Of a stretch of DNA of 47,530 nt, positions 20,736 to 47,444 are shown piece after piece (within the stretch, counting starts at the first letter, position 1; each line of letters starts with the position of its first letter). The notes beneath the pieces were generated by a model. It saw only the letters and a program-made list of their open reading frames with translations, did no database searches and was not told the origin of the DNA. The position numbers and the translations under genes are program-made. This stretch comes from a virus. The DNA is taken from positions 1-47,530 of the IMG/VR virus record IMGVR_UViG_3300025108_000091; one strand, written 5' to 3'.

Positions 20736-20764
20736 AACGTATCACGGCGCCCTTTACTTGTCAA
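20736..20764 (-). promoter_or_regulatory. late promoter with variant palindrome
   Basis: On the minus strand: TTGACA (20764-20759), a 17-bp spacer and TACGTT (20741-20736). The surrounding CTTGACAAGTAAAG deviates at two positions from the CTTGACACGTCAAG box used at the other late promoters. Confidence 0.65.
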
Positions 20765-23700
20765 GACCTTCCGTGAACTTCTCGACGCGATCCCGCTGGT
20801 CCTCCCGCGTGATGTCCTTGCGCCTGTACCGCGACTTCCGGTCACGGACCCGCGGGTCGATCACGAACTTCTGGCGGTCGAGCACCGACTTCTTGGGGTC
20901 GTGCTTGGTCATCAGGCCGATGCCGAGCCACTGGCGCAGCAGGTAGGTCATGACCTCAGCGGCCTCGCCTTCCTGGTACGTGAGCGCCGACTCCAGCGCC
21001 GGGTCCGCCCAGTACGAAATCTCCGAGGCGACGGGAGCCATGTCCCACATCGTGCGCATGCCGCGATCCACCCGCACGCCCTCCTTGTTCTCGCCGTAGG
21101 CATCCTCCTCGATGAACGCCCCGAGCACTGCCTGCCGCGTGAGGGACGTGTCCCGCTGCGACGGCGACGCGAAGCGCGTCTTGGGGTAGAGCAGGTCGAA
21201 CATGGCGTCGCCCACGGGGCCGAGGAGCATGTCCCCGACAGCGCGGGCCCCGTCCTCAGCGGCGATCTTCGCGGTCTCGGGAGCTTCGACGCCGGGGGTG
21301 GCGCCCGCGGCGATGAGTCCGCCCGCGGCGATGAGTCCGCCGATGATGCGGATGCCCGTCGCGGTCATGTCCATCGGCGTGAAGCCGGGCAGGCTGTACG
21401 CGACGTGGGTCGCCTCGACGCCGTACATCGCGAGGTGTTCGCGGTACATCTCGTCGGACGCCTTGTTGTTCGAGTAGAAGATCCGCGGTGAGTTGCTCGA
21501 CCACCAGGGGAAGACGTGGCGCAGGCCGTCGGTCTCGTCCTCGCCCTCGAACTCCTTGTCCCAGGCAGCCATCGCCTGAGTGGACATGGTCATGTCTCGC
21601 AGCCGGCGGGTCTTGGTGCCCAGGCCCAGCGCACCGAACTCGCCCTTGTAGCTCTTCACGGCGCCATCAAGCACCACGCCCGCAGCCTGCTTGAGGGCGA
21701 GCTTGTAGAAACGCCAGTACATCGCCACCGAGGACAGGACGCGGCTCTCGGCCTCGACAGCGTGCCCCCAGTCGTAGAGCGAGTTGCGCACCAGAGCGCC
21801 AGCCTCCTTGGTGCTCCGCCCTTCACCGATGACCGAATGCAGGAACAGGGCGACGCGCTGCCGCTGCTCGGCGAAGTCCGCCAGCTCGGCCCACTTCGCG
21901 CCGTGCCGCTCGGCAGCCTGGACGAAGCGGCCCTGCCGCACGGCGCCCATCACGGTACCGCCGTCGATGCCTCGCCCGGCCTCGTTCAGGATGGCCGTGC
22001 TTCCGTAGGACGTGAACACGCCCTCACTGAGCGCAGCCTCGCGCAGCTGAGCCGCCGTGTAGATGCGCCCGTTCTTGTCGGCGATCTTCTTACCAGCAGG
22101 CATGAGCTTCGGGTCGTAGAACGCGCCCACGTACGGGTTGAAGAGAGCGTTCATCAGCGAGTGCTGGGGGGATCCGGCCTTGCCCGAGGCTACGTGAGCC
22201 TCGAACAGCTTGGCGTAGGCCTTGTCGATCTTGGGCCCGACCACAGGCAAGCCCTGGAGGCTATGGAACGCCATCCCCGTTGCGACGTGGGACGTGTTCT
22301 GTAGCGCCGTGACGATGCCGGCTTCGGCCCAGACCTGGGCGAAGTTGCCGAAGAGCATGTTGGCGAAGTAGCGCGGACGCGCGAACAGGACGCCGGTGGT
22401 GAGGTTCGTCTTCCACAGCTGTAGGAGGCTCAAGGCGACGTCGGCGCCCTTACGCGCCTCGGTCCCGATGTCCCCGGCGCGGTACGCCTGCAGCTCCTTG
22501 ATGACCGGACCCATGCGGCCCGTCATCTCGTCCATCCAGCGTCGCGGGATGAACGTGCCGTCCTTTAGCGCGTGAACGCCGTACATCAGCTCCTTGCCGG
22601 TAGCCGTCGTGGTCTTCTGCAGCGTGATCGGGAGCCCGAGGTACCCGAAGACCCGCATCGCGGAAGCGATCTCCTCCTTACCTGAGAGCGTGCCGGCCAT
22701 GATGCGGTCCATCGAGAGGACCACCTCGGGCGGCGCGTCCGCGAGCTTCGAGACCTGGCGCGAAGCGCGCCGCATGATGGCCGCGGTACCGAGCACCTGG
22801 CTCGCCTTGCTCAGGGCGTCGAGGCCGTGGGTCCCGGCCTGCAGCCCAGCTGGCGTCAGCGTGCCCATGTTGCCCGAGAGGTTGAGCACGGTCAACTCCG
22901 CGAGCTTCTCCATGAACTCGGGGAACGTCTGCGTCGCGGCGCTCAGCTCGGCCGCTTCCCGAGCCTTCGAGGTCTTCGGAGCCTTCGCCGTGCCGAAACG
23001 GAGCAGGTTGTAGACCCCCTCCTCCATCTGCTTGGCGATCTTGTTGCTGTACTTCGCCGTGCCGGGCACAGCTCCGCCGGGGATGTATACGCGAGACAGC
23101 CCCTGAATCAGCTCGTTCTCTCGCAGCGCCTTGCTCTGCGAGAACTGGCGCAGCATGGAGCGTCCCGAGGCCCACAGGGACTCGCCCGACGCCATGTTGA
23201 CGAAGCTCTGGCCGCCCCAGCTCAGGTTGCCGGAGTACGTTGCGTCGCCCACGTACTTGTGGAGGACCTCGACCCGATCCTCGATCGTCTTGGCCCTGCG
23301 CAGCGCCTGACCCAGCTCAGCCTGGAACAGGCGCATCTGGTCCAGCGCGCCCTTCCCGACCTGCTGGAACTCGCCCGAGCCGACGCCGACCGTCGACAGG
23401 TGAGGAGGCTCCAGCATCTTGCGCATGCGGGCGAAGGTCCGCGTGAACATGCCCTCTCCCGCCTTGGGGAGCTTGAGCAGGTCGTCGCCCTTGACTGCGC
23501 CCTGAGCCATCAGGGCGGCGCCCTTGACCTTGCGGCCGGACTTGAGCGCGGCGCCCAGGTCCTTGTAGGCGAAGCCCATCTCGCGGAGGGCCTGGGTCGT
23601 GTACGCCTTGATCATCGGCCCGCGCGCGGCGCCGCCGACCTTCTTGCCCAGAGCCTTGACTGCCGCGGCGTGGTCCTTCTTTACGCCGGCGACGGAGCCT

Positions 23701-25547
23701 CCAGCGAGGACCTTGTCCTTGGCCTGGGCCAGGAGCATGGCGTGTAGGCGCTTCTCGCTCTTCGACGCCGCCGTCTGCGCAGCGAGGACCGAGTCGTCGA
23801 GCTGCTTGAACGCAGCCGTGCCCGAAGCTCGCCGCAGCAGGACCATCTCGGCAGCGAGCGTGTTGTACGCCAGGTCCAGCGTCTTCTGCGCGGCCGTGGG
23901 ATCGGGGGCGCCGATGTAGGCCTCGCGAGCCTTGAGGACCTCTGCGAGGGCCGCGTCCACGGCCTTGCGCGCGGTAGCGACGTCGCCCGAGCCTCCGGCC
24001 ACGGTGCCGGGCATGCGCTTCAAGAAGCCGCGCATCGCCTTGGCGTCGTCCAGCGCCATCTTGTTCATCATGTCCAGTGCGCGCGCAGCCTCCAGCTCAC
24101 TGTCGGCGAGCTTCTGGACCGCGTTGATGTCCCGCTTGGCCGCCTTGGCCTGGCGCCAGCCGTACTTCTGCCCGGAAACCCCGGCGTTCGCCGCAGCCTT
24201 GGCGTCGATGCCGAGCTTGTCGAAGATCTTGGCGACGCCTTCGTGCGCCTTAGCGGCCACGAGGCGGGCCTGGATCGTGCCTCCCTCAGCCGCCGGCTTG
24301 GCGGTGCCCGTCAAGGCCTGGAGGTACGTGCCCACGATGGCCTGAGTCGTGGGGCTGATCGACTTGATGCGCTCCAGCGTAGCTGCGGTCATGTCCGTCT
24401 GTGCGGACGTCTTGTCGACCCGCGCGCTGAGCTGCAGCAGCTCGTCGCCCTTAGCGAGGGCGCTCACGTGCGCCGCGCTTCCGCCTTCGAGGACCGCCCC
24501 GGCGGCTTCCAGTCCCTTGGCCGCCTTAGTGCCCTTGCCCGCGGCCAGCACAGCCTTGGTGCCTGCCACGGTAGCCGAGCCCACGCGCGCGGCTTTGCCC
24601 AAGCCACCCAAACCCAGGGTCAGGGCGTCGGGCTCCAGCATCACGATGGTCATGATGGCCGGCATGGCTCGCAGCGTGTTGCTGGTCTCTTCCTCAGGCT
24701 CGCCGAAGAAGCCCCAGTCGTAGAGGTGCGAGGCCAGCCCCAGCGCGGTTCCGGGACCGCCGGCTGCGGCGCGCAGCGTCTCGCCCGTCTTGCCCTTGCC
24801 TGCCTGAGGCGCCGCCTCGAAGACGGACTCGCCGCCTCGAATCGCTTCGATCTGCTCGCGCGTGCCGAAGCCGTGCATGGCTCCGGTGGCGAGGTAGGTG
24901 CTCGGCGCGCCCTGGGCGAGCCAGTGGAGCCAGCCCAGGGTGCCCTCGCGGAAGGTGCTGTTGGCCTGCTCCGTAGGCTTGTACGCCTTGATGTTCGCCG
25001 GCTGGGCCCAGGCGCCCACCGCAGCGGCCACGGATTCAAGCCCGCCCAACGATGCCTGCTCGGCCAGCTCGTTGGTCGTGCCCTCGGGGTCGCTGTCGAT
25101 GAAGATCCAGTTCGTGCCGCCGGACAGCTGGACGCCCTGGTTGAACCAGGCGCGCTCCTCGTTGACGGCGTCCTGCCGCCACTGGCGCATCAGCTCCGGG
25201 GGCGGGGTACGCTGGTCGGGGTTCTCGGTCAGCCAGTCCCGGTGCTTCTCGGCGAGGTTGAGCTTCGCGAGATCCTGCACATCGGCGGCCACGTCGATGC
25301 CGACGCGCTGCCCGATGGGCTCGATGGCGAGGCGCGCCTTGCCTCCGCCCGAGGCCTTGCGCAGGCGCTCGGCGTACTCCGGGGGGAGGCCCAGGTCCTC
25401 GTATTCCGGCGCCTCGTAGGCGCCGGTCTTGGTAGGGGCCTCAGGCTCGGGGCGCTGGGGCTTGGCCTTCGGGACTTCCTTCTCGGCCTTCGAGGGAAGG
25501 CCCAGGCTGGCGCGCTGCTCGTCGGTCCAGACAACAGGCTTCGGCAT
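20754..25547 (-). CDS. very large internal virion / DNA-ejection protein
   Basis: A 1597-residue protein, start ATG 25547 with GGAGAG upstream, the largest gene of the window. The N-terminus is Pro/Lys/Glu-rich. The rest is Ala-rich and helical, with several hydrophobic stretches (about 300-350, 1440-1480) including a tandem GGLIAAG pair from an 18-bp duplication at 21304-21339. In short-tailed phages such giants are ejected to form a channel across the envelope (T7 gp15/gp16-like role). I see no transglycosylase motif. Its position after other Ala-rich virion genes fits an ejectosome component. Confidence 0.65.
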   Translation of the reverse strand: MPKPVVWTDEQRASLGLPSKAEKEVPKAKPQRPEPEAPTKTGAYEAPEYEDLGLPPEYAERLRKASGGGKARLAIEPIGQRVGIDVAADVQDLAKLNLAEKHRDWLTENPDQRTPPPELMRQWRQDAVNEERAWFNQGVQLSGGTNWIFIDSDPEGTTNELAEQASLGGLESVAAAVGAWAQPANIKAYKPTEQANSTFREGTLGWLHWLAQGAPSTYLATGAMHGFGTREQIEAIRGGESVFEAAPQAGKGKTGETLRAAAGGPGTALGLASHLYDWGFFGEPEEETSNTLRAMPAIMTIVMLEPDALTLGLGGLGKAARVGSATVAGTKAVLAAGKGTKAAKGLEAAGAVLEGGSAAHVSALAKGDELLQLSARVDKTSAQTDMTAATLERIKSISPTTQAIVGTYLQALTGTAKPAAEGGTIQARLVAAKAHEGVAKIFDKLGIDAKAAANAGVSGQKYGWRQAKAAKRDINAVQKLADSELEAARALDMMNKMALDDAKAMRGFLKRMPGTVAGGSGDVATARKAVDAALAEVLKAREAYIGAPDPTAAQKTLDLAYNTLAAEMVLLRRASGTAAFKQLDDSVLAAQTAASKSEKRLHAMLLAQAKDKVLAGGSVAGVKKDHAAAVKALGKKVGGAARGPMIKAYTTQALREMGFAYKDLGAALKSGRKVKGAALMAQGAVKGDDLLKLPKAGEGMFTRTFARMRKMLEPPHLSTVGVGSGEFQQVGKGALDQMRLFQAELGQALRRAKTIEDRVEVLHKYVGDATYSGNLSWGGQSFVNMASGESLWASGRSMLRQFSQSKALRENELIQGLSRVYIPGGAVPGTAKYSNKIAKQMEEGVYNLLRFGTAKAPKTSKAREAAELSAATQTFPEFMEKLAELTVLNLSGNMGTLTPAGLQAGTHGLDALSKASQVLGTAAIMRRASRQVSKLADAPPEVVLSMDRIMAGTLSGKEEIASAMRVFGYLGLPITLQKTTTATGKELMYGVHALKDGTFIPRRWMDEMTGRMGPVIKELQAYRAGDIGTEARKGADVALSLLQLWKTNLTTGVLFARPRYFANMLFGNFAQVWAEAGIVTALQNTSHVATGMAFHSLQGLPVVGPKIDKAYAKLFEAHVASGKAGSPQHSLMNALFNPYVGAFYDPKLMPAGKKIADKNGRIYTAAQLREAALSEGVFTSYGSTAILNEAGRGIDGGTVMGAVRQGRFVQAAERHGAKWAELADFAEQRQRVALFLHSVIGEGRSTKEAGALVRNSLYDWGHAVEAESRVLSSVAMYWRFYKLALKQAAGVVLDGAVKSYKGEFGALGLGTKTRRLRDMTMSTQAMAAWDKEFEGEDETDGLRHVFPWWSSNSPRIFYSNNKASDEMYREHLAMYGVEATHVAYSLPGFTPMDMTATGIRIIGGLIAAGGLIAAGATPGVEAPETAKIAAEDGARAVGDMLLGPVGDAMFDLLYPKTRFASPSQRDTSLTRQAVLGAFIEEDAYGENKEGVRVDRGMRTMWDMAPVASEISYWADPALESALTYQEGEAAEVMTYLLRQWLGIGLMTKHDPKKSVLDRQKFVIDPRVRDRKSRYRRKDITREDQRDRVEKFTEGLDK
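21304..21339 (-). repeat. 18-bp perfect tandem duplication in the large virion gene
   Basis: Two identical 18-base units encode a repeated GGLIAA segment. Confidence 0.9.
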
Positions 25548-25550
25548 GGA

Positions 25551-27008: not shown

Positions 27009-27011
27009 GCA

Positions 27012-27449: not shown

Positions 27450-27450
27450 G

Positions 27451-27936
27451 TCAGTAGCCCCGCGTGCTGACGTCGGCGCCGACCTTCTTCGCCTTGTCCT
27501 TGGCCTTGGCGTTGCGGATCGCGGTCAACACGGGCCCGTCGCTGCCGAACCAGCGGCCCTTGTCCGTGGCTCCGCTGCCGTCGGGCGCGGCCTTGACGAT
27601 CGGCAGCTCTGCCGGGCGCGCCTCTTCCTCGCCCTCTTCGGGGATGGCGAGCTTCTCGGGCAGGCTCGGAGCCGCCTGGGCCGCCGTGCCGCTGGCTGCG
27701 GCGAGCTGTTGTGCGGCCACATCCTGCGCGGACTTGACCGTGTCGAGGATCGCCTTGGAGCCGCGAGCCATCTTGCCTTCGCCGTCTTCGGACTTGCCGC
27801 CGCCGCCGAGCATTCCGCCGAGCTTGCCGAGCCAACCGCCTCCAGCAGCAGCGCCTCCAGCAGCAGCGCCTCCAGCGCCGCCCGCGGCAGCACCTCCACC
27901 AGCGGCACCAGCCGCAGCGAGAATCGGGATAGCCAT
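27451..27936 (-). CDS. glycine-zipper virion protein
   Basis: A 161-residue protein, start ATG 27936 with GGAGGT upstream, overlapping the previous stop by one base. Residues 1-35 are almost only Ala and Gly after MAIPIL (a glycine-zipper hydrophobic helix), encoded partly by 15-bp tandem units at 27839-27877. The rest is charged. Such N-termini insert in membranes, so this may belong to the ejection apparatus. Confidence 0.6.
   Translation of the reverse strand: MAIPILAAAGAAGGGAAAGGAGGAAAGGAAAGGGWLGKLGGMLGGGGKSEDGEGKMARGSKAILDTVKSAQDVAAQQLAAASGTAAQAAPSLPEKLAIPEEGEEEARPAELPIVKAAPDGSGATDKGRWFGSDGPVLTAIRNAKAKDKAKKVGADVSTRGY
27839..27877 (-). repeat. 15-bp tandem units coding for Gly/Ala
   Basis: Two full copies and a partial third of CCTCCAGCAGCAGCG (plus strand) in the glycine-zipper region. 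Confidence 0.8.
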
Positions 27937-29519
27937 CACTTACCTCCATCAGGGGTGTTCGCGAGCAGGAACTCGTGCAGGGGACTGCCCTCGAAGTTCT
28001 GCAATGCGTCGACCGCGGCGCCGGCGGGTACGCCCGCGACGGCAGTGTAGGCCGCGGTCGTGAGGTCCTTGGCTTCATCTGACATCGGGGCGTTCCACGC
28101 CCCCGGTTCGCCCGCCGCGATGCGTTCGTACCCGTCGGCGTGTTCCCTGATACCCTTCTCGAAAGCGCTGATTCTGCGCGGGTTCGGGTTGCGGTCGTCC
28201 TCGCTGGGCTCCAGAAAGCCGTTGAGGTAGGCCGCCAGGGCGCCGCCCTCGGTCTCCAGGCCCGTCAGGGCCAGGATCTTGTAGGCCGCGGCCTGCTCAC
28301 GTACATCGAGCCCCAGCTGCCCCATGACGCTGTCGAGCTGCTCCATGTCCTGAGGGGACATGTCCACGACCTGGCCCGAGGGGGAGAGGTTCTCCTTCAC
28401 GAAGGCCTGGAGCATGGCGGCCTCCGCCGCCATCTCCGCGGGCCTCCGCCTGCGCTCCTGCACCTCCTTACCCACGGCGCTGGCAGCTTGCTGCGCGAGG
28501 TTCGCCTGGCCGTGGTACACCTTGCCAGTGTCGCTCACCTGGCGCGCAGCCTCACTACCCGCCCCTTCCAGCGCGTCCAGTTTTGCCGACCTCTCGCGGC
28601 TCAGGGCGCGCGCCGCGGTACGGGCGTCACGCTTGAGGTGCGCATTGGGGTCCTCGATCTGAGGCACCGAAGGTTCGGGAGGCTCGGCGTTCAACCAAGC
28701 CGAGGCGTAATTCTCCTTGAGCTTCTCGGCCGCGGAGCGGGCGATAGCCTCCTCGGAGTATGGGTCGCCCTCGATGGTGAGGGGCTCCATGACGTGCGCC
28801 CTGGGGGGCGCCGGTGCAGGCTCGCGGCTCTCGCCAGGCCCGACCTTCTGGGCGGGAGCGGGCCCCTTGCCCGCGGGGGTCTTGGCCTTCACGGGCGCGG
28901 AGGCTTCGCCTCCGTCACGCTGCGCGGTGATGGCCTTGTACATGTCGACGCCGTCGGCGTTCAGGTCGCCGGGACGCACCTTGCCTTTGCGGCTGCCCTT
29001 CTCGGCGAGGATGTAGTCGCCGTAGTCCTTGTAGCTCCAGCCGCCGGGGCCTTCCCAGCTCGCCACGTCGCCCGCGATGTCCGCGGCGACGCGCTTCTGG
29101 CCCTCGTCGATGCTCTCGTCGATGCTCTCGCGCCGCGCGGTCGTGCCCTCGACACCGCCGCCCAGGAGGTCGTCGAGCAGGACGAAGTCCTCGCCCGAGG
29201 TGTCGGGCACGCCGATGTCGCTGTAGTCCTCGTTCGTGATGGCGCCGCGCTCGTTCGGGTCGGCAACGACCTGCCACGGATTCCCGGTGTCCGTGGGGAC
29301 GCGCTTACGTTCCTTGGTCTCCGGGTCGAGGACCGGGGCCGTGTTGTGCGTCTGGGCGAGGCTCCGAGCGCTCTCCTCGGGCAGGTCGGCGATCGCCTCG
29401 TCGCTGAGGAGGTCGGGGTCGTTCGAGGGGTCGGCTTCGGCGGATGCTCCGCGAAGCTCGTTCATGCGCGCCTTGAGGCGCTCAACGCGCTCGCGCGCAG
29501 CCGGGGTAGTAGAAGCCAT
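27936..29519 (-). CDS. putative internal virion protein
   Basis: A 527-residue protein, start ATG 29519, which lies only 5 bases after the -10 box of its promoter, so the message may be leaderless. Acidic N-terminal half with a repeated ESIDESIDE, a Pro/Ala linker (about 205-245), then Ala/Arg/Glu helices. The sequence GGWSYKDYGDYILAEKGSRKGK (about 150-172) could be a small folded unit. No family recognised. It heads the block of internal virion genes. Confidence 0.55.
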   Translation of the reverse strand: MASTTPAARERVERLKARMNELRGASAEADPSNDPDLLSDEAIADLPEESARSLAQTHNTAPVLDPETKERKRVPTDTGNPWQVVADPNERGAITNEDYSDIGVPDTSGEDFVLLDDLLGGGVEGTTARRESIDESIDEGQKRVAADIAGDVASWEGPGGWSYKDYGDYILAEKGSRKGKVRPGDLNADGVDMYKAITAQRDGGEASAPVKAKTPAGKGPAPAQKVGPGESREPAPAPPRAHVMEPLTIEGDPYSEEAIARSAAEKLKENYASAWLNAEPPEPSVPQIEDPNAHLKRDARTAARALSRERSAKLDALEGAGSEAARQVSDTGKVYHGQANLAQQAASAVGKEVQERRRRPAEMAAEAAMLQAFVKENLSPSGQVVDMSPQDMEQLDSVMGQLGLDVREQAAAYKILALTGLETEGGALAAYLNGFLEPSEDDRNPNPRRISAFEKGIREHADGYERIAAGEPGAWNAPMSDEAKDLTTAAYTAVAGVPAGAAVDALQNFEGSPLHEFLLANTPDGGK

Positions 29520-29524
29520 AGCTA

Positions 29525-29553
29525 CCTATAACCTGCCGGGCTTGACGTGTCAA
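29525..29553 (-). promoter_or_regulatory. late promoter with CTTGACACGTCAAG operator
   Basis: Minus strand: TTGACA (29553-29548), a 17-bp spacer and TATAGG (29530-29525). The -35 is part of the full 14-bp palindrome at 29541-29554. The predicted transcription start coincides with the ATG at 29519. Confidence 0.75.
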
Positions 29554-29556
29554 GCG

Positions 29557-34455: not shown

Positions 34456-34482
34456 GGTTCTCTCTCCAGAAAAGGTGCTTGT

Positions 34483-34511
34483 AGTGTAACACGCCGGTCA
34501 GGCGTTGTCAA
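34483..34511 (-). promoter_or_regulatory. late promoter without the full operator
   Basis: Minus strand: TTGACA (34511-34506), a 17-bp spacer and TACACT (34488-34483). The flanking sequence GTTGACAAC is a short palindrome but does not match the 14-bp box of the other late promoters. Confidence 0.7.
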
Positions 34512-36000: not shown

Positions 36001-36018
36001 GCCTACCTCATACGAGAA

Positions 36019-36047: not shown

Positions 36048-36097
36048 CTGGTGGCCGGCAAGAGGGGAGAGGAGGAGCAGCTCGCCGGTCAGCTTGC

Positions 36098-36673: not shown

Positions 36674-36686
36674 GCTGATACTCCTA

Positions 36687-37760: not shown

Positions 37761-37818
37761 GTGTTACAGGTCCTCGGTAGGGAGAGAGTGGCGGGCGTCA
37801 GATCGCCCGTGCTCCTGT

Positions 37819-37847
37819 AAGGTAACACAGGCGAGTTGACGTGTCAA
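37819..37847 (-). promoter_or_regulatory. late promoter of the capsid genes, with operator
   Basis: Minus strand: TTGACA (37847-37842), a 17-bp spacer and TACCTT (37824-37819). The palindrome GTTGACGTGTCAAG at 37835-37848 (plus strand) contains the -35. Confidence 0.75.
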
Positions 37848-37857
37848 GAGAAAAAGG

Positions 37858-38742: not shown

Positions 38743-38759
38743 GATCCTCTCCTACGGGT

Positions 38760-39053: not shown

Positions 39054-39054
39054 G

Positions 39055-39339
39055 CTACTTCTTTCCAAGGGCAGGGCGTACCTGCTTGCGGAGGTCCGCG
39101 CTCAGGATACCAGCTGTACCGAGCTTGTGGGCCTCGTTGGGGTTACCCATGAGCCAGGACATGGCGTCCTCGATGATCTCCTGACGGCGCGCCTTGCGCT
39201 TCGCCTGGCGTTCAGCTCGCTTCACGGGGTCAATCTTGATTCCCACGGGGGCTCCCTTCTTCCGGTTGTAGATGCCGAACGCCGCAGCGGCCAGCAGGAT
39301 GACGATGACCAGTAGGCCAGAAATTGCGATGGGGTCCAT
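39055..39339 (-). CDS. small membrane protein with basic tail
   Basis: A 94-residue protein, start ATG 39339 overlapping the previous stop. One transmembrane segment directly after the start (MDPIAISGLLVIVILLAAAAFGI), then a Lys/Arg-rich cytoplasmic region (RAERQAKRKARRQE) and a helix. Layout is N-out, C-in. It could hold virion assembly or the neighbouring peptides at the membrane. A lysis role is possible. Confidence 0.6.
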   Translation of the reverse strand: MDPIAISGLLVIVILLAAAAFGIYNRKKGAPVGIKIDPVKRAERQAKRKARRQEIIEDAMSWLMGNPNEAHKLGTAGILSADLRKQVRPALGKK

Positions 39340-39713
39340 TAGGCTTCGTGCCGCCCCTCGACACCGCGGCGCATGCGATCGAGGGTGCGCTTGTGCTGCC
39401 ACATGAGCGCCTCCTCCAACTTGGTGACGGTCACGGCGTTCTCACGGCTGGCGAACGGACCACGCTGGAAGGCGCGGAGCCGATCGAGGACCACCGCGAT
39501 CAGGGCCTCGTTCGTGATGCCGTTGACGCCATGCTCCAGCACCGGGCCGTGCTGAAAGTGAATGTGCGCCTCCTCGGCCCGACCATCATCAGTTCCGACG
39601 ATGTAGTGATGGTGGGCCCCCCCGCCCTTCTCGTGATCGGCCTTGTCGGCGACGAACACCTTGACGTGCTCGCTGTTGAAGTCGTTGATCTCGTGGTCGT
39701 GCAAAGTACGCAT
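39339..39713 (-). CDS. putative Acb2/Tad1-like cyclic nucleotide sponge
   Basis: A 124-residue protein, chosen start ATG 39713 with TAGGAG upstream; an alternative ATG at 39785 overlaps the 20-residue gene. Residues 50-124 match, from memory, the Acb2/Tad1 hairpin family of phage anti-CBASS and anti-Thoeris proteins: HFQHGPVLEHGVNGITNEAL, DRLRAFQRGPFASRENAV and KLEEALMWQHKRTLDRMRRG followed by VEG. Those proteins bind signalling nucleotides such as cGAMP or gcADPR and blunt host abortive defence. A His-rich N-terminal segment (GGAHHHYIVG) precedes it. Its place in a structural operon is unusual for an early-needed inhibitor. Confidence 0.6.
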   Translation of the reverse strand: MRTLHDHEINDFNSEHVKVFVADKADHEKGGGAHHHYIVGTDDGRAEEAHIHFQHGPVLEHGVNGITNEALIAVVLDRLRAFQRGPFASRENAVTVTKLEEALMWQHKRTLDRMRRGVEGRHEA

Positions 39714-39781
39714 GGAAACTCCTATCCTTCTGCGTTGTTGGTAGGCCCGTTCAGACAAATAGGCGGGAGATGAAGATCTCG

Positions 39782-39844
39782 TCATACGTCGAGCGCAGCC
39801 GCAGTGGCGAGGATGACGAGAGTGATGATGTGGGTCGGGTCCAT
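39782..39844 (-). CDS. 20-residue membrane micro-ORF
   Basis: ATG 39844 overlaps the stop of the amidase-like gene (TGATG). The product MDPTHIITLVILATAAALDV is one hydrophobic helix. Its start resembles the membrane protein encoded at 39055-39339 (MDP followed by an Ile/Leu/Val/Ala helix). The TGATG overlap and that similarity argue that it is translated. Confidence 0.45.
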   Translation of the reverse strand: MDPTHIITLVILATAAALDV

Positions 39845-40362
39845 CAGTAGTCGAAGCCCTCGGGTGCGAACTGCGAGAAGTCGAACGGGATGCTCGGGTC
39901 CTCGACGAGAGCGTATACCCCCTGCTTCCACTTCTCGCGAGGGAAGGCGGGACCAGGGTCGTTCTTCATCTTGTCCGACTCGTCGTGGAACAGGATCTGG
40001 CCGCCGCCGCCTCCACAGTGCTCTCGGAGCAGATCGGCAGCGTGCAGTGCCATCGCGTGCAGGTCCCGCGGGTCGTACCGCTTCTGGAACATGCCCTTCT
40101 GACCCGTGCGTCGGTTCTGGGCAGGAACACAGCCCTCGACCTCGCGAACACGCAGGCCCTCGTGCTTGAAGGCGATGCCGATGTGGCTGTGGTTGAAGCC
40201 GTACGCGTGGTAGGTCACGTCCGTCGGCTTGGCGAGTTCGTAGACGATGCCCTCGTGGCCGATGGCCTGGTAGCCCAGGTCCGCACTGCGGTTGTTCTCC
40301 TTCTCCAGCTGCCTAAGGCGGTCGCCGTCGCTTCCGGCCGGGTACCCTTTCTCGTCGGCCAT
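39844..40362 (-). CDS. T7-lysozyme-like amidase domain lacking the first zinc ligand
   Basis: A 172-residue protein, start ATG 40362. Residues 29-145 align with the T7 lysozyme/amidase_2 fold: DLGYQAI (Tyr31 at the catalytic Tyr site), YHAYGFNHSHIGIAF (51-65), a DPRDLHAMALHAADLL helix and FHDESDKMKNDPGP with His126, Lys133 and Asp135 at the zinc and catalytic sites. The N-terminal strand that carries the first zinc-binding His is absent. In its place is GYPAGSDGDRLRQLEK, shared with the protein at 38760-39053. It may be inactive, or borrow a ligand. It is the only endolysin-like gene I can see. Confidence 0.65.
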   Translation of the reverse strand: MADEKGYPAGSDGDRLRQLEKENNRSADLGYQAIGHEGIVYELAKPTDVTYHAYGFNHSHIGIAFKHEGLRVREVEGCVPAQNRRTGQKGMFQKRYDPRDLHAMALHAADLLREHCGGGGGQILFHDESDKMKNDPGPAFPREKWKQGVYALVEDPSIPFDFSQFAPEGFDY

Positions 40363-40389
40363 GCTGGCTATTCCTTGTCGGGAGCAGGT

Positions 40390-40418
40390 AGCTTAACCCG
40401 CTGGGGTTGACGTGTCAA
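40390..40418 (-). promoter_or_regulatory. late promoter of the amidase-like gene, with operator
   Basis: Minus strand: TTGACA (40418-40413), a 17-bp spacer and TAAGCT (40395-40390). The palindrome GTTGACGTGTCAAG occupies 40406-40419. Confidence 0.65.
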
Positions 40419-40422
40419 GGTT

Positions 40423-40932: not shown

Positions 40933-40941
40933 GGTCCTCTC

Positions 40942-42735
40942 CTATGCCAGGGGTGCGCCAAGCTCCTGCGCCAGTTCCGCTGCTGCGGGCTGGCCGGCCT
41001 CGGCGCCGATTTGGTTGCCGGCGAGCGGCGCGGGGAGCCCAGCGTTCGGGTCGCCTGCAGGCAGGCTCCCGGTGTCGGGCATCATGGGCGGCTGCTGGGC
41101 AGCTGCCATCTCTTCTTCGGTGTTCGCGACGCCGTCCAAGTCCAGCCGTTCGAGCAGCCGCTTGGTCAGGCGAACCTGATTCACTGCTGGGTTGCCCTGC
41201 AGCAGAGGCATGTAGGTCTCCAGCCGCTTGAGGTCGACGACCGAGTTGTTCTCGTCGGCGTTGAAGGGGCGAGCCTCGTAGTCCCAACTCCAGTCCTCTT
41301 CGGCCTCGACGTCGCCCTTCGCGTCCAGGTCGGGGAAGTTCATGGACTGGCGCGTGGCCGTCGCATCTTCCTCGCCATCCTGCACCCGCAGCGGGATGTC
41401 GCTCTCGGGGTCCAGGTACTCCAGGTACAGGTCGATGATCTTCTTGGCGACCTGGGCGATGACGAGGTACAGGGCCTTCTGTCGCCGGGCGTCGCGGGTC
41501 TTGGTCGCTCCCTCGATCAGAGCCAGCTCCGTGGCGACGTCGCTCTGCCCGGCCGCTCCGCGCTGGTACGCCGGCAAGCCGAGCACGCGCTCGATCTCCT
41601 CGATGATGGCGGCTCGGGCTCGGGCCCACTCGATCGGGAGCTGGACGACTGGGGTCTGTCCCATGATGTCGTTGATGGTGACGTCCCGCCGAGCGTTCAG
41701 GTGGATCGCGTGACCTGGTCCGGTCGCGGACTGGAAGGCGTCGGCGAACTCCTCGGGGTCCTCCAGCAGTGCGTCGTGGATGACGGGGATCGGGATCGCT
41801 GTCTGGATGTGCCACATCTCCAACGAGGCCAGCTCGTTGAGGCGCTGCAGCAGGGCGTAGATGAGGTGCGCGTCGCTCAGGCCGCCGGTGTCTTCGAGGT
41901 TGTCGTTGAACGTCAACATGTCGAAGGGGTTCTTGACCAGGCGGTACGGCAGGTCTGTCGTCATCAGCGGCGCTTCGACGCCCTGGGCGAAGTGGTAGTA
42001 CTTCTCGCCGACGAGGTCGTAGTACTCGTAGATCACGGCGTACTCCGCGTAGGAGCGCGTGATGTCGATCTCGGTCTCGTCCTTCTTGCCGGAGCGCTTG
42101 TCCAGCTCGTCGGCCTTGAGCCAGTCGGGGAACGTGCCCCAATGGATGTCGTCCTCGCAGTCCGAGCGGTAGTGTCCACCCTTCTTCGGCTTCTTGAGCC
42201 GCTGCGCGAACTGGGCCTTCGTGATGGTCGTGATCTCGCAGATGTACCGCAGGTCATCCCAGGTCTCCGCAGCCATGTCGTAGATGACGCGATGCGGGGG
42301 CAGGATGCGGAGCTTCGGCCGCTTGCGCTTGGCCTCGTAGATCGTCTTCGTGAAGGCGCGCGGGTAGACGCTGGCCGTGGCTGCGAGGCGCCAGAACTTC
42401 TTGGGGGCCTGCTCGCGGAGCAGGACGTCGTTCACGAGCGCCGTGCGGACCCTCGCGGCGCCCTTCATGGTGCGCCGCCGGGCGACGATGTCGACCTCGG
42501 GGTTCGTGGGGCACACGTTCGAGATCAGCGAGTCGACGAACGAGTACAGGTGGTTGTGCTCGACCGTGATGTCGTCGTCTTCGGCTCCGGCCTCGCCGCC
42601 CTCCTTACCGTAGAAGTTGCCTCGGTATGCGGCCAGGTGCATGGCCCACGTCTTGCGCTGCGTGTCGAGGCGTGCCTGGTGGTGCTCGATGAGCTTGTAT
42701 GCCCAGAGTGCTTCGGGCTTCGGGTCGGTGGGCAT
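40942..42735 (-). CDS. portal protein
   Basis: A 597-residue protein, start ATG 42735 (AAGGAG upstream). It follows the large terminase in the packaging order and has the size and helical/beta pattern of podovirus portals: an N-terminal helix with Trp/Tyr, NHLYSFVDSLISNV, PFDMLTFNDNLEDTGG (clip/stem region), IIEEIERVLGLPAYQRGAA in the tunnel region and a Gln/Pro/Ala C-terminal tail. It forms the dodecameric channel at one capsid vertex. Confidence 0.8.
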   Translation of the reverse strand: MPTDPKPEALWAYKLIEHHQARLDTQRKTWAMHLAAYRGNFYGKEGGEAGAEDDDITVEHNHLYSFVDSLISNVCPTNPEVDIVARRRTMKGAARVRTALVNDVLLREQAPKKFWRLAATASVYPRAFTKTIYEAKRKRPKLRILPPHRVIYDMAAETWDDLRYICEITTITKAQFAQRLKKPKKGGHYRSDCEDDIHWGTFPDWLKADELDKRSGKKDETEIDITRSYAEYAVIYEYYDLVGEKYYHFAQGVEAPLMTTDLPYRLVKNPFDMLTFNDNLEDTGGLSDAHLIYALLQRLNELASLEMWHIQTAIPIPVIHDALLEDPEEFADAFQSATGPGHAIHLNARRDVTINDIMGQTPVVQLPIEWARARAAIIEEIERVLGLPAYQRGAAGQSDVATELALIEGATKTRDARRQKALYLVIAQVAKKIIDLYLEYLDPESDIPLRVQDGEEDATATRQSMNFPDLDAKGDVEAEEDWSWDYEARPFNADENNSVVDLKRLETYMPLLQGNPAVNQVRLTKRLLERLDLDGVANTEEEMAAAQQPPMMPDTGSLPAGDPNAGLPAPLAGNQIGAEAGQPAAAELAQELGAPLA

Positions 42736-42741
42736 CGCTAC

Positions 42742-42770
42742 TCCTTAACCGGTGCGGGTTGACGTGTCAA
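42742..42770 (-). promoter_or_regulatory. late promoter of the portal gene, with operator
   Basis: Minus strand: TTGACA (42770-42765), a 17-bp spacer and TAAGGA (42747-42742), a poor -10 that overlaps the ribosome-binding site. The palindrome GTTGACGTGTCAAG lies at 42758-42771. The site may serve mainly as an operator. Confidence 0.5.
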
Positions 42771-42773
42771 GGG

Positions 42774-44573
42774 TCAGGACGACCAGTACTTGCGCTTGGG
42801 GCGCCGCAGCTTCGGCTTGTTGCGCGAGGGTTTGCGCCGCTTGGAGCCCTGCTTCGACTTGCGCTTATCTTCCGCCTCGGCCCGACGCTTGGCCTTCCAG
42901 AGGTCGTCAGTCCAGGTGGTGGGGTCTTCGGGGACGACCTCGCCGTGGTCCTCGCGGAGCGTCAACGGGCGGAAGCGTACGGGCTGGCTGTACGCCCCGT
43001 AGACCGCCCACAGGAGGGCCGAGACGCGGTCCCAGTGGTGGGAGGCGCGGCGGCCCTTGGTCAGCTTTCCGGGGCGCAGGATCTCGCTGGCCGCACTGTC
43101 CTCCACCAGCTTGTCGTTGCGGTAGCTCGACAGCTGGTCCAGGGTCTCCTGGTCGTTGATCACGAGCCGATCCATGAGCGAGTCGATGAGGCGACCGAGG
43201 GCCTCCTGAATCGTCTTCGTGCTGGCGGGGATGCCGGGCTTGCTCTTGCCGATGCCGCGGCTTCCGTGGCAGTAGAGCTTGCGTAGGTCGCCGCGCTGGA
43301 AGGCCTCGTACAGCATGGCGATCACGCCCATGCCGACGCCGTTCGACTCTACGATGACCTCGGCGTCGTTGTACTCGCGCGCCAGGCGGACGATGATCTT
43401 GGACAGGGAGGGAGGATCGACCTTGTTGCTCTCCAGAACGGCGACCTGCTCCCAGCGATCTTCCCAGAGTTCGAGGACCTGGATGCAGGCGGGGTCGTTC
43501 CCCATCCATCCGGCAGGGTCCACGCCGATGATGTACACGGCGCCGGGCTTCGGCTCGCCGTAGCGCTGCAGGCCTTCGTGGTCGGGGTCCCAGGGGACGA
43601 CTTCACGCTCTCGGTGAGGGTCGAGGACGTGGGAGGGGATCGCGGAGCCGCTGGCCTGAGCCCAGCAGGTGATCGGGTCGAAGGGGTAGTAGACCTTGAA
43701 CAGCTCCGGGTAGCGCCGGACTTCGGGGTCCATGTCGAGGATCTCTCGGCGGAAGGCCAGATTCTCGACGGTGAGGTAGGGAAGTCCCTTGCCGGAGACG
43801 CGCTCGCCTCCGAACTGCTGCAGCAGGCCTACCTCCTCGTTGGTGAGGTGCCAGCTGGGGTTCCAGTTGCGCTCGTTGAGGCGGGACTGGAAGAAGGGGA
43901 CGAAGAGGAACTCCCAGCGCCCGATGCCCCGACGAGCCTCGGCGCAGATGTCCCGGTACCAAGAGGCGCTGGGCAGGGTCATCGGCGCGGGCGTCGACTC
44001 CAGCAGCACGATGGCCTCCTTGCGGTTGATGATCGCCGGCAGGATACCGTTCCAGGTCTCCGCGGCGTCCTTCGCGAAGGGCAGCTCAGACATGTGGAGG
44101 TAGTCGAAGGCTCGGCCGATGCCTGCCATCGAGGCTTCCATTGACAGCGTCTTGATCTTCGCCATCGTCTCCAGCGTCAGCTGGCGGACCTCGGTCTTAC
44201 CTCCCGTGTGGGTCTTGACTCCGTCCGGCATGTGCTCGTAGCACGTGTTGATGGTACGGAAAAGGTCGATGGCGCGGTCCTTGTTGTCCGCGAAGATCGC
44301 GGCGTACGCGCTGGGGTGCGAGTTGACGTAGACCAGCCCGCCGAGCGCGGCGACGAGAGACTTCCCGCACTGCCGAGGGCCGAGAACGGCCTGCATCTTG
44401 CGGTGCCCGGTCGGCGTTCTGCGGTCGCTGTCGATGAAGTCGAGGATCCCGTTCGCCATCTGAGGGCAGATCTTGGCGGGATCGAAGCGCACCAGCTCGC
44501 CGGACTCCTGGTCGAGGACCGTGCCGTAGTTCGAGAGGACCTGCCGCGCGTTGCGGAGGTCAAGCTGGGACAC
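42774..44573 (-). CDS. terL: terminase large subunit
   Basis: A 599-residue packaging motor, start GTG 44573, coupled to the gene before it by a 14-base overlap. The ATPase part has Walker A GPRQCGKS (65-72) and a Walker B strand FDYLHMSE (156-163). The nuclease part has IIGVDPAG with D351, VIVESNG with E408 and HHWDRVSALLWAV with D514. The basic C-terminal tail (about 560-597) is rich in Lys and Arg. It cuts and pumps the genome into the prohead through the portal. Confidence 0.93.
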   Translation of the reverse strand: MSQLDLRNARQVLSNYGTVLDQESGELVRFDPAKICPQMANGILDFIDSDRRTPTGHRKMQAVLGPRQCGKSLVAALGGLVYVNSHPSAYAAIFADNKDRAIDLFRTINTCYEHMPDGVKTHTGGKTEVRQLTLETMAKIKTLSMEASMAGIGRAFDYLHMSELPFAKDAAETWNGILPAIINRKEAIVLLESTPAPMTLPSASWYRDICAEARRGIGRWEFLFVPFFQSRLNERNWNPSWHLTNEEVGLLQQFGGERVSGKGLPYLTVENLAFRREILDMDPEVRRYPELFKVYYPFDPITCWAQASGSAIPSHVLDPHREREVVPWDPDHEGLQRYGEPKPGAVYIIGVDPAGWMGNDPACIQVLELWEDRWEQVAVLESNKVDPPSLSKIIVRLAREYNDAEVIVESNGVGMGVIAMLYEAFQRGDLRKLYCHGSRGIGKSKPGIPASTKTIQEALGRLIDSLMDRLVINDQETLDQLSSYRNDKLVEDSAASEILRPGKLTKGRRASHHWDRVSALLWAVYGAYSQPVRFRPLTLREDHGEVVPEDPTTWTDDLWKAKRRAEAEDKRKSKQGSKRRKPSRNKPKLRRPKRKYWSS

Positions 44574-44811
44574 GAGTCACGCTGATGATGTTGTCGCTGA
44601 ACAGGAGGACGCCGTTCGCTCCCGCGAAATGGCCGGTCCCCTGCTCGCTGCGCTGCGCCTTGTTCCGCTTCGTGCGCCAGGCGGTGTACTTCTGCAGGAG
44701 CTGGCGCCACTCGTGGAGGGTGTCGCAGATGAAGGTCCCGGTCTGCTGCGGCTTGTCCGACGACCAGGGGACTTCGTACACGATCGTGACGCGAACGCGG
44801 CCATCAGACAT
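44560..44811 (-). CDS. hypothetical protein
   Basis: An 83-residue protein, start ATG 44811, overlapping the previous gene by the 8 bases ATGTCTGA. Begins with strands (GRVRVTIVYEVPW) and then a basic helix (TAWRTKRNKAQRSE). No family recognised. Tight coupling to the terminase suggests a packaging accessory. Confidence 0.6.
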   Translation of the reverse strand: MSDGRVRVTIVYEVPWSSDKPQQTGTFICDTLHEWRQLLQKYTAWRTKRNKAQRSEQGTGHFAGANGVLLFSDNIISVTRVPA

Positions 44812-45358
44812 CGTAAAACACCAGCGTCAGGATGGAGGGGGCCTCATCATCGGGGATGAACTCCGCGATCTCGCCCAGGGTGAGCAGGGCCGAGCAGTAG
44901 TTGCTGTGGGAGTCCTGAGCCTGGGCGTAGGCCTTGTCGTCGAGGCAGAGGGACTCAGGGTCCCGCTGCTCGGCGAGCGCGATGGCGAGGTAGGACGCCA
45001 CTTCCGTCAGGGGCTCGGACACGCCCAGCTCGTCGGCCCAGTACCACGCCAGGTAGTACCACTGCACCAGGGAGTTCACGGCTTCGAGGAAGTCGTCGTA
45101 CATCTCGATCTCCTCCGAGATGGTGCGGAACTCGCGAACGATCGCCTTGGCCTGACACAGGCCGAGGGCGCCCGGAAGCGGCGCGAGGAACTGATCGACC
45201 TCGCCCTCCGGCAGAGCAAAGGACTTCTCCCAGGTCTCGATGGGGATGCCGTTGTCTTCACTGTTGATGGCGAGCCCGGCCAGCGCCAGCGCGTCGAAGG
45301 TGTCGAGGGTCCGTCGACCATCCTCGGGGAAGGCGTAGACCGTGTAGAGATCAGACAT
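44804..45358 (-). CDS. hypothetical acidic helical protein
   Basis: A 184-residue protein, start ATG 45358, overlapping the previous gene by ATGTCTGA. Mainly acidic helices with many Leu and Ala residues (AIVREFRTISEEIEMYDDFLEAVN). No DNA-binding signature. Being just before the terminase it could be a packaging factor. Confidence 0.6.
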   Translation of the reverse strand: MSDLYTVYAFPEDGRRTLDTFDALALAGLAINSEDNGIPIETWEKSFALPEGEVDQFLAPLPGALGLCQAKAIVREFRTISEEIEMYDDFLEAVNSLVQWYYLAWYWADELGVSEPLTEVASYLAIALAEQRDPESLCLDDKAYAQAQDSHSNYCSALLTLGEIAEFIPDDEAPSILTLVFYDV

Positions 45359-45734
45359 GCAGAAGGGGCTCTCCGTCTGGGCCGAGGACGGTGACCTGAA
45401 GCTCGTCCTCCGGCGGGGGTGCGAGGGGCTTGGCCAGGTGGTTTGCAGCTGCAGGCAGGATCGGCGCCCGAGTCTTGGCCTTGCTCAGCTCGCGGGCAGT
45501 CACGGAGGTGAGGAGTAGTTCGGCCATGTCGCGGCACGCGCCGGCCTGCTCGGGAGTCAGGCGACCGGCCATGACCTCCGTCATGATCAGCGCGCAGAGG
45601 CGGTTGAACTGCTGGAAGCCGTCGGCTTCGGGCTCTTCAAAGGCCTGACGGACCAGGGCTCGGACCGAAGGGTCGGCCTTTCCAAGCTCGTCGAGCGAGC
45701 GCTGTCGGGGGGCCCGAGGCTTCTTGGGCGGCAT
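45351..45734 (-). CDS. candidate small terminase subunit
   Basis: A 127-residue protein, start ATG 45734 with GAGGAGAAG upstream and the strongest late promoter of the window. The N-terminus is basic (PPKKPRAPRQRS), helices follow (DPSVRALVRQAFEE, FNRLCALIMTEVMAG), then a Pro-rich tail. Size and first place before the large terminase fit a small subunit, but I see no HTH consensus, so the call is positional. Confidence 0.45.
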   Translation of the reverse strand: MPPKKPRAPRQRSLDELGKADPSVRALVRQAFEEPEADGFQQFNRLCALIMTEVMAGRLTPEQAGACRDMAELLLTSVTARELSKAKTRAPILPAAANHLAKPLAPPPEDELQVTVLGPDGEPLLHV

Positions 45735-45758
45735 GCTGCTTCTCCTCAGCGTAGGTAC

Positions 45759-45787
45759 ATAATACCACGACCGGCTTGACGTGTCAA
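45759..45787 (-). promoter_or_regulatory. main late promoter, with operator
   Basis: Minus strand: TTGACA (45787-45782), a 17-bp spacer and TATTAT (45764-45759), close to full consensus. The palindrome CTTGACGTGTCAAG covers 45775-45788. It drives the packaging and head genes. Confidence 0.8.
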
Positions 45788-45795
45788 GCGCAATC

Positions 45796-45811
45796 GGCCA
45801 TAATGGCGCCG
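45796..45811. repeat. 16-bp direct repeat, copy 1
   Basis: GGCCATAATGGCGCCG, identical to 46623-46638. The two copies flank the gene at 45814-46569. The unit contains the short palindrome GCCATAATGGC. Confidence 0.85.
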
Positions 45812-45813
45812 AT

Positions 45814-46569
45814 TCAGCCGGTTTTCGCGGACCTTACGAGACTTCGGCGCGAAGATCGAGGGATCCACGGAAGGAAGGGAAGGTGCTTGAGGCGGTTCAG
45901 GTCCCAGGCCGGAGATAGCGCGCGGGCGTAATTAGGCTTCGAGATGGCGAGGGGGTTCTCTTCGAGGATCGTGCGCGCGGCGAGCCGGGCTTGGAACGAG
46001 GCGCCGCGGCCGAGGGGCACGTAGTCGAGCTGCGGGCGGCAGGCCCAGATGTAGAACCACGTGTGTCCCGCCAGCTCGGTCGCGGCGGCCGGCATGGCCT
46101 CGATCTCGCCGCGAGTGAGCGGGAAGCCGTGGGCGTAGGCCGCGAGCAGGGAGCTGGCACCCGCGCTTACGCGGTACGCGAGAGCGTCGCGGCGGTGCTT
46201 GCGCTGGGTGGGGAGGTAGTCGGCCGCGAACTGCGCCGGCGTGGGGGGCGCCACGTCCGCGGCGTGGAACGCGGCGAGGGTCTCGGCCGACCAGGCGGCG
46301 GGCGGGCGGAGGAAGTCCTCGGAGCGCGACCACGCGTCGAGGCGAGGGAAGCGCGCGAGGAAGGTCTCCCAGTACTGGACCCGCTGGGCGCCGTACGAGC
46401 CGGCGAGCTTCTTGCCTTCCACGGCGGCCACGAGGCCGAGCGCGGTTTTGGGGTGCCCAGGGTCGTGGAGGTCGGTAGCTCGGGCCGCGAGAGCGAGCGG
46501 ACCAGGCCCTCGGAGGCAGTTGAGGAGGTACGCGGTGAAGGGCTCGGCGTCCGTGGGTCGACTGGGCAT
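45814..46569 (-). CDS. hypothetical protein, possible moron
   Basis: A 251-residue basic protein, chosen start ATG 46569; an ATG at 46587 is in frame but lies inside the promoter spacer. It is rich in Ala, Arg and Leu, with Trp-containing helices (ELAGHTWFYIWACRPQLDYV) and a basic C-terminus (WIPRSSRRSLVRSAKTG). No family recognised. It has its own promoter, is separated from the terminase block by a fresh late promoter and is bracketed by 16-bp direct repeats. This looks like an independently acquired cassette. Confidence 0.6.
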   Translation of the reverse strand: MPSRPTDAEPFTAYLLNCLRGPGPLALAARATDLHDPGHPKTALGLVAAVEGKKLAGSYGAQRVQYWETFLARFPRLDAWSRSEDFLRPPAAWSAETLAAFHAADVAPPTPAQFAADYLPTQRKHRRDALAYRVSAGASSLLAAYAHGFPLTRGEIEAMPAAATELAGHTWFYIWACRPQLDYVPLGRGASFQARLAARTILEENPLAISKPNYARALSPAWDLNRLKHLPFLPWIPRSSRRSLVRSAKTG

Positions 46570-46575
46570 GCCCTC

Positions 46576-46604
46576 AGCATAGCACATCGCGCGGAGTTTA
46601 GCAA
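46576..46604 (-). promoter_or_regulatory. promoter of the outermost leftward gene
   Basis: Minus strand: TTGCTA (46604-46599), a 17-bp spacer and TATGCT (46581-46576). The ATG at 46569 begins 6 bases after the -10, so the message would be leaderless or nearly so. There is no CTTGACACGTCAAG box here. Confidence 0.6.
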
Positions 46605-46622
46605 GGCGTGGCCTTTACCAAA

Positions 46623-46638
46623 GGCCATAATGGCGCCG
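46623..46638. repeat. 16-bp direct repeat, copy 2
   Basis: Identical to 45796-45811 and overlapping the 7-bp hairpin GGCCTTT-ACC-AAAGGCC at 46610-46626. Confidence 0.85.
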
Positions 46639-46767
46639 TGGGTGGCCCGGAGGTGAACGCCACCGAACTGTTCAGCACTTCGGCCAGCTGCCAGCGGGAC
46701 CTGAGGCAAGGTCTACCCCTTTGGACGCCGGGGAGTAACCTTCTCTTTATGTATATACCCCTTTAAT

Positions 46768-46808
46768 GGTTCCCCTCTTTCTTCTATGTATATTCCCTAT
46801 ATAGGTTT
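46768..46808 (-). repeat. AT-rich leader element, copy B
   Basis: The inverted partner of 1161-1200, read on the minus strand toward the leftward arm, about 200 bp before its first gene. Next to it (46741-46767) a second, shorter TATATACATA-AAGAG block repeats part of the element. Confidence 0.85.
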
Positions 46809-47133
46809 TTAAGAGAGAGAGAAGAGGGAGAATAGAGGAAAGCGCAGGTTGAACCTGGCTTATGAGTGAACAGGAGAGACGTACTACTGAACGTTCAGGT
46901 CGCTAAGTGGCCGGAATCGCGACGCTTTTTCCGTCGACCTCGGCGTTCACCTGCCGTTCACAGCGCTCATCCGCGGCGGTCTTAGGGGGTTCGGGGGAGG
47001 TACCACCCCCAGGCCACCCAGCGACCACCCCTCCGAGGTACCTCGATTTCGTTTCTACCCCCGGCCCTCTTCGCCAGCTGGCGCCTTCACACTCGGCCTA
47101 TCTGTGCGAGCAGGGTACTGGCTAAAGCCAAAG

Positions 47134-47171
47134 CCCCCCGCCCTGACCCAAGACCCCACCCCCCTGGCCCC
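47134..47171 (-). other. G-quadruplex-prone tract on the minus strand
   Basis: Six C-runs of 3-6 on the plus strand with gaps of 1-4 bases give G-runs on the minus strand that fit the G3+N1-7 rule. It directly abuts the operator at 47171. Confidence 0.55.
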
Positions 47172-47184
47172 TTGACACGTCAAG
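47171..47184 (+). promoter_or_regulatory. operator copy CTTGACACGTCAAG
   Basis: A perfect example of the 14-bp late-promoter palindrome, here in the intergenic region. The TTGACA faces right but no good -10 follows at 17 bp (GATTTC), so it may act only as a binding site. Confidence 0.65.
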
Positions 47185-47313
47185 TCATCGTCTCGATTTC
47201 ACGTTAACCTGAACGCTTGTTCACCTGTACGCCCGTTCAGGTTGGGGGGTCTGGCCAGGGGGCTCTACTGAACAAGGGTTCAGGTGTGCGACATCTATGT
47301 CGCGGTAGCTCAA

Positions 47314-47405
47314 TCGCGCTGTGGCTCGCTCTCGCTGGAGCGAACAGTCCCCAGGGGGGCAGTGCGTAGGAGCCCCGAAACCAGCGAGAACGAGCTACAG
47401 CGCGA
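47314..47405. other. long imperfect hairpin
   Basis: Arms 47314-47338 and 47381-47405 pair over 25 bp with two mismatches around a 42-base loop that itself holds G- and C-runs (CCCCAGGGGGG and AGCCCC). It could be a structured RNA, an origin hairpin or a packaging site. Confidence 0.65.
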
Positions 47406-47415
47406 GTGAGAGGTA

Positions 47416-47444
47416 TGGACACGTCAAGAGTTTTCGGGTCAAAT
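47416..47444 (+). promoter_or_regulatory. rightward promoter with degenerate operator
   Basis: TGGACA at 47416-47421, a 17-bp spacer and TCAAAT at 47439-47444. ATGGACACGTCAAG (47415-47428) is a variant of the late box. The palindrome TTCGGGA-T-TCCCGAA follows at 47453-47467 in the predicted leader of the gene that starts at 47518. Confidence 0.55.

Follow-up and report, generated by a model that had tools for sequence, protein, structure and literature searches.

A palindrome over the -35 boxes of late promoters in a phage genome fragment, a probable repressor operator

In phage P1 (C1 operators) and phage phiC31 (CIBs), one repressor acts on many operators that overlap promoters around the phage genome, mainly the early promoters of these temperate phages. 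The stoperators of cluster A mycobacteriophages, such as those of L5 Rep, which block elongation depending on their orientation, are asymmetric, monomer-bound sites present in 20-30 copies per genome, mostly away from promoters (PMC6550527, PMC9283540). In the marine bacterium Ruegeria pomeroyi DSS-3, the TetR-family protein BetI1 protects 29 bp with the perfect palindrome ATTGACGCGTCAAT over a predicted -35 box, and repression by blocking initiation was inferred by its authors (PMC12442346). The Rv0560c promoter of Mycobacterium tuberculosis has a TTGACA -35, a 17-bp spacer, an extended -10 and a palindrome overlapping the -35; it is under negative control, for which its authors suspected a MarR-type repressor (PMC3317779).

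We analyzed a 47,530-nucleotide stretch of viral DNA (the window) and found a short palindrome dispersed over nine sites, including one on the overlapping contig L078, six of which are located on promoters. The sites resemble stoperators in being one short motif dispersed over intergenic gaps and promoters (PMC9283540, PMC6550527). However, stoperators are 13-14 bp without dyad symmetry, belong to temperate phages and number 20-30 with most not promoter-associated, whereas the sites here are perfect 12-bp palindromes, some of 14 bp. The stoperator network brought up by the first-pass annotation therefore fails on symmetry, number and placement, as the present sites are palindromic, few and mostly at promoters. 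Like the BetI1 box, the phage sites are perfect palindromes with the core TTGACGCGTCAA covering the -35 (PMC12442346); the TTGACG-CGTCAA arrangement is found in the phage with AC/GT instead of GC at the centre. BetI1 differs in controlling a bacterial choline-responsive regulon and in the outer bases A..T of its box, and the phage has no identified BetI. The MarR-family operators of Paenibacillus and actinobacteria share with the phage the palindrome TTGACRYGTCAA over a TTGACR -35, with about 17 bp to TANNNT, but there two copies flank one promoter beside the regulator gene, whereas the phage has single copies at many promoters, and no MarR gene next to the sites was matched in the window or L078. 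The likeness to Rv0560c lies in the layout, leaving the palindrome sequence aside, and concerns a single bacterial promoter. The palindromes look like conventional repressor operators that a group of promoters has in common; dispersed operator sets are of a known kind, and the unusual point here is their position on late promoters.

The palindrome and the late promoters

Scanning the window sequence, we found all eight copies listed by the first-pass annotation (Table 1). They had been described as 14-bp palindromes, which is exact for only three of the eight: the perfect 14-mer CTTGACNNGTCAAG occurs at 29541, 45775 and 47171. The copies at 37835, 40406 and 42758 read GTTGACGTGTCAAG, in which one outer mismatch leaves the outer base unpaired and a 12-bp perfect palindrome intact. 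The 20752 copy has one mismatch inside the core, in an arm, and the 47415 copy has two. The genome-wide motif scan that had been proposed as a check showed that the 12-bp core TTGACNNGTCAA is enriched, with six exact occurrences in the window compared to 0.02 expected, a number reached by 0 of 100 shuffles, while the loose 14-mer with at most three mismatches showed no excess over chance (12 seen in the window, 16 expected from shuffled sequence).

As had been noted, six copies read on the minus strand as TTGACA, 17 bp and a TA-rich -10, so that the -35 boxes of leftward late promoters are overlaid by five core copies and the one-mismatch copy at 20752. The palindrome spans about -36 to -23. 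The promoters have the sigma-70 build (TTGACA, about 17 bp, TATAAT-like), and the palindrome is located on four secure and two weak ones and is absent from one. Those at 42758 and 29541 are less secure, because their -10s (TAAGGA and TATAGG) are weak, the predicted transcription start falls on the ATG at both, and the supposed -10 at 42758 overlaps the Shine-Dalgarno sequence AAGGAG. The other four have a normal distance to the next start codon. Across the five core copies at promoters, the 14 bases are 96% identical, compared to a mean of 28% in the upstream and 41% in the downstream flanks; with such unrelated flanks, the copies are unlikely to stem from a promoter cassette that was recently duplicated. 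The sequence GGCCATAATGGCGCCG occurs twice near the beginning of the late arm, at window positions 45795-45810 and about 46623.

Table 1. Coordinates of palindromes, promoters and the candidate gene in the window
Feature	Position	Strand	Context
Putative operator CTTGACACGTCAAG	45775..45788	-	over -35 of TTGACA(45787)-17-TATTAT; upstream of gene 45351-45734
Putative operator CTTGACACGTCAAC	42758..42771	-	over TTGACA(42770)-17-TAAGGA; upstream of portal gene 40942-42735
Putative operator CTTGACACGTCAAC	40406..40419	-	over TTGACA(40418)-17-TAAGCT; upstream of amidase-like gene 39844-40362
Putative operator CTTGACACGTCAAC	37835..37848	-	over TTGACA(37847)-17-TACCTT; upstream of major head protein gene 36687-37760
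Putative operator CTTGACACGTCAAG	29541..29554	-	over TTGACA(29553)-17-TATAGG; upstream of gene 27936-29519
Putative degenerate operator CTTGACAAGTAAAG	20752..20765	-	over TTGACA(20764)-17-TACGTT; upstream of gene 19837-20670
Perfect palindrome CTTGACACGTCAAG	47171..47184		central non-coding region; -10 on neither side
Variant palindrome ATGGACACGTCAAG	47415..47428		central region
Two GAAC-N4-GTTC palindromes	47211..47281		beside 47171; two more beside the extra L078 palindrome
Late promoter without palindrome	34483..34511	-	TTGACA-17-TACACT; ahead of 34111-34455 and tail genes
Early-arm promoter without palindrome (control)	1314..1342	+	TTGACA-17-TATACT
Early-arm promoter without palindrome (control)	13048..13077	+	TTGACA-18-TATTCT
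Weak candidate regulator, 136 aa	465..875	+	repeated strand-helix modules, low-confidence model

The promoters without the palindrome serve as controls inside the phage. At the late promoter with its -35 at 34511, a palindrome-free consensus promoter is also present in the three relatives G001, G006 and G007. Its -35 lies inside the last codons of gene 34498-36000 (GTT GAC AAC GCC TGA), and the 20752 site overlaps the codons CTT GAC AAG TAA that end gene 20754-25547. Because both -35s fall within the end of the upstream gene, the absence of the palindrome at one and its broken form at the other may be due to coding constraint. Besides the two early-arm controls, two further palindrome-free promoters were found in the early-side region of L078. 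The palindrome is thus present at five to six of seven late-side promoters compared to none of four early-side ones (Fisher p 0.06 with five, 0.015 with six). Consistent with the first-pass annotation, the window's early arm contained no copy, and the same was true of about 10 kb of additional early genes on the overlapping contig; with an expectation of about 0.02 copies per window, however, this absence says little alone.

The central region and the comparison with relatives

The two copies at 47171 and 47415 sit in the central non-coding region, as had been described. L078 (17,071 bp) matches window positions 42265-47530 with 100% identity and extends 11.8 kb beyond the window end without meeting the window start, so the window is a fragment and not a whole genome. 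This extension carries a further palindrome, 0.8 kb from the window end, together with promoters that lack it and numerous small genes pointing rightward. No convincing -10 was found at any of the three central palindromes, those at 47171 and 47415 and the one on L078; with these promoterless copies, the palindrome is more than a by-product of the -35 box. The central region also contains tandem 10-bp GACATTTCGT repeats and GAAC-N4-GTTC boxes, four of the latter compared to an expectation of 0.7 per 47.5 kb, and may be a replication origin or a control region. These boxes are LexA/SOS-box-like; they adjoin the central TTGACACGTCAA copies, four in about 1.2 kb, at 47211-47222 and 47270-47281 of the window and at 6101 and 6117 of the L078 reverse complement.

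The relative G001 (56.8 kb) is syntenic with the window, its major head protein being 70% and its terminase 55% identical. We found in it at least ten leftward late promoters built as TTGACA-17-TANNNN; in almost every one, TGTGT or a similar sequence precedes the -10. Five of them are located at the gene boundaries used in the window (window/G001: 45787/51708, 42770/48611, 37847/42419, 34511/38949 and 29553/33784). The palindrome was found on none of ten G001 late promoters, compared to five of seven in the window (p 0.003); it is an overlay and not a part of the promoter. The palindrome, its placement, its enrichment and its overlay on promoters whose counterparts in relatives lack it are all read from the sequence. 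On this comparison, the promoters are old and the palindrome on them is an overlay of the window phage's lineage. It also shows how such a regulon can originate: the promoters stay at the gene boundaries, and one lineage acquires an operator on top of them.

We found no palindrome in the more distant relatives G006 and G007, and one copy in each of G008-G011, which in G008 and G011 was placed in a repeat-rich central region. Among relatives, late-promoter palindromes were common only to nearly identical fragments, and a search of the phage collection gave no DNA matches and only distant terminases. Central-region matches with one mismatch, at 54230 in G001 and 19588 in G007, were not counted, as their surroundings are full of other TGCCAA repeats. 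A different palindrome on the G001 late promoters was considered and rejected: the apparent ACA...TGT dyad is the -35 set against the extended -10, and the variable pairs showed no excess (19 compared to 20.6 expected, P 0.75).

Several minor features of the relatives were observed. The ten late promoters on the G001 minus strand (L079-L081) have a sharp extended -10, mostly with GTGT directly before the TA, in contrast to three G001 early promoters with GG at that place, a possible late-class signature. In the central region of G006 (L086 739-818), the palindrome GTATCA-N4-TGATAC occurs three times in tandem at 30-32 bp intervals and represents another family of operators or iterons. The box GGAGGTGCTTTAAAC, which may be a cos site or an origin, is common to the central non-coding regions of G001, G006 and G007 and absent from the window and L078.

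The proposed repressor and the alternatives

Lytic phages without their own RNA polymerase must delay their late genes, usually with an activator or an antiterminator. A simple alternative would be to cover late -35 boxes that are otherwise strong with a repressor operator. We consider it probable, at roughly 0.6, that the palindromes are operators of a dimeric repressor that blocks the late promoters. The first-pass annotation had proposed that a single protein could jointly switch all head and tail genes. That the late -35 boxes share a protein-binding palindrome is well supported, but "all" is too strong, as the 34511 promoter ahead of the tail genes is without it. Binding by a protein, repression and its timing are inferred along the following lines. 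A dimeric protein, most likely a winged-helix or TetR/MarR/CI-type repressor reading the half-site TTGAC, would bind TTGACRYGTCAA. Placed over the -35 hexamer of strong late promoters, it would compete with the host sigma factor for the same bases, since the span of about -36 to -23 is the site of sigma region 4, which a bound dimer would occlude. While the protein is present, the covered late promoters would be held off, and they would fire together after its removal, its inactivation or its dilution by replicated phage DNA. The copies in the central region would bind the same protein in another role, such as titration, looping, autoregulation or an origin function. Repression by occlusion is the best supported mode because near-consensus promoters need no activator, the palindrome lies over the sigma site, and BetI1, the precedent studied biochemically, is a repressor.

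Searching for the binder, we found that a MarR profile matched no phage protein in the window or L078 (best E above 4). Scans of most of their proteins against Pfam and PHROGs revealed no MarR-, TetR- or CI-like gene, and no Rep-like or other repressor family was found among most proteins of this partial genome. No integrase was identified in this phage. The sole repressor-family signal in these scans was a sub-threshold PadR-like match on L078 (L094:10001-10258, E 0.0028), a winged-helix-like protein of 86 aa; it remains a weak candidate, with a poor model and no alignment to the MarR profile. The other weak candidate, at 465-875 (Table 1), has no relatives and no family or structural match, and neither was accepted as the binder. 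A further sub-threshold match (E 7e-5) links window 39339-39785 (minus strand) to the Acb2/Tad1 hairpin domain of the anti-CBASS/Thoeris sponge family.

Because no repressor was found among the screened phage proteins, a host repressor is a serious alternative, and a special case of the repressor reading. On this account, which is possible though less likely than not, the binder would be a host BetI/TetR- or MarR-type protein whose operator was copied by the phage, and late expression would follow a host signal. In its favour, the core equals the footprinted BetI1 box of a marine bacterium, which likewise covers a -35, the same motif is linked to MarR genes in Paenibacillus and actinobacteria, and unrelated phages carry it, for example in 13 copies on an 84-kb contig. 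However, the outer bases differ (C..G or C..C here, A..T in the BetI box, G..C in Paenibacillus), the small proteins lacking an assignment in about 10 kb of early genes could include a regulator, and many copies in other phages look like origin repeats and not like promoter operators. The narrower version, in which a metabolite-sensing host repressor (BetI/MarR-type) gates the late genes through an operator copied onto most late promoters, seems unlikely. If true, virion production would be licensed by a host chemical signal and not by a phage clock, and the match to host TetR and MarR repressor operators makes this host-controlled version directly testable.

An activator that binds the palindrome and switches the late promoters on is somewhat less likely still. 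It would fit the presence of the palindrome on the same set of late promoters, two of them with weak -10s, but all six have a perfect -35 and a standard 17-bp spacer, the palindrome, at about -36 to -23, would compete with sigma, and G001 late promoters of the same build do without it. Hardly better or worse placed, and also improbable, is the suggestion that the central copies are iterons bound by a replication initiator and that the promoter copies couple late transcription to replication. The central palindromes do lie beside the GAAC-N4-GTTC boxes and the 10-bp repeats, other phages have tandem TTGACRYGTCAA arrays near replication-like genes, and the G008 and G011 copies are in a similar setting; however, six of the eight window copies are single promoter sites, each aligned with the -35 and kilobases from the next. 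That no protein binds, and that the copies come from chance or from a strong promoter cassette being duplicated, is very improbable: TTGACA is already a -35 and gives half the palindrome free, but the flanks are unrelated, promoterless copies exist, and the extra arm is absent from the phage's other consensus-like promoters and from G001's ten.

The motif in bacteria and other phages

Searching the literature for the phage motif strings gave no match, and it was the GC-centred core that led to BetI1. We also scanned for two TTGACRYGTCAA copies 25-55 bp apart, which gave 16 viral and 74 bacterial stretches; a separate contig scan gave 63 matches, which sample palindrome-bearing contigs in general. 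Of the 74 bacterial loci with paired copies, 35 have a MarR-family gene (Pfam MarR) within 400 bp; these genes form one related set and are located mainly in Paenibacillus relatives and actinobacteria. This link between palindrome and MarR gene is a co-occurrence in sequence, an association. The layout of these loci is phage-like, with TANNNT 16-18 bp downstream of the palindrome's TTGAC hexamer in 26 of the 35; 23% of palindrome strands have TANNNT at this distance, compared to 3% at random.

In other phages the motif occurs in several settings. L104 has two divergent promoters, each read from the sequence as a palindrome on a TTGACA -35 with a 17-bp spacer, and other phages carry tandem TTGACRYGTCAA arrays in or near genes resembling replication genes. 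Several unrelated proteins evidently read the half-site TTGAC, and the binder therefore cannot be named from the motif alone. The 13 TTGACRYGTCAA sites of the 84-kb viral contig (L017/G013) are dispersed, and at least two of them lie in gene gaps just before a ribosome-binding site, preceded by GGGACCACAG; this contig is nearer to a dispersed-operator network than the window is. In Planctomycetota loci (L130, L132, L142, L167, L178 and others), TTGACRYGTCAA pairs are 57 bp apart, and one small lipoprotein-like gene recurs beside at least three of them, as a putative conserved regulon. Nearly identical repeats with two TTGACGCGTCAA palindromes each are scattered over the genome of Bacteroides sp. 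214 (L126, L128, L144, L153, L160, L161, L163 and L185), perhaps as a mobile repeat.
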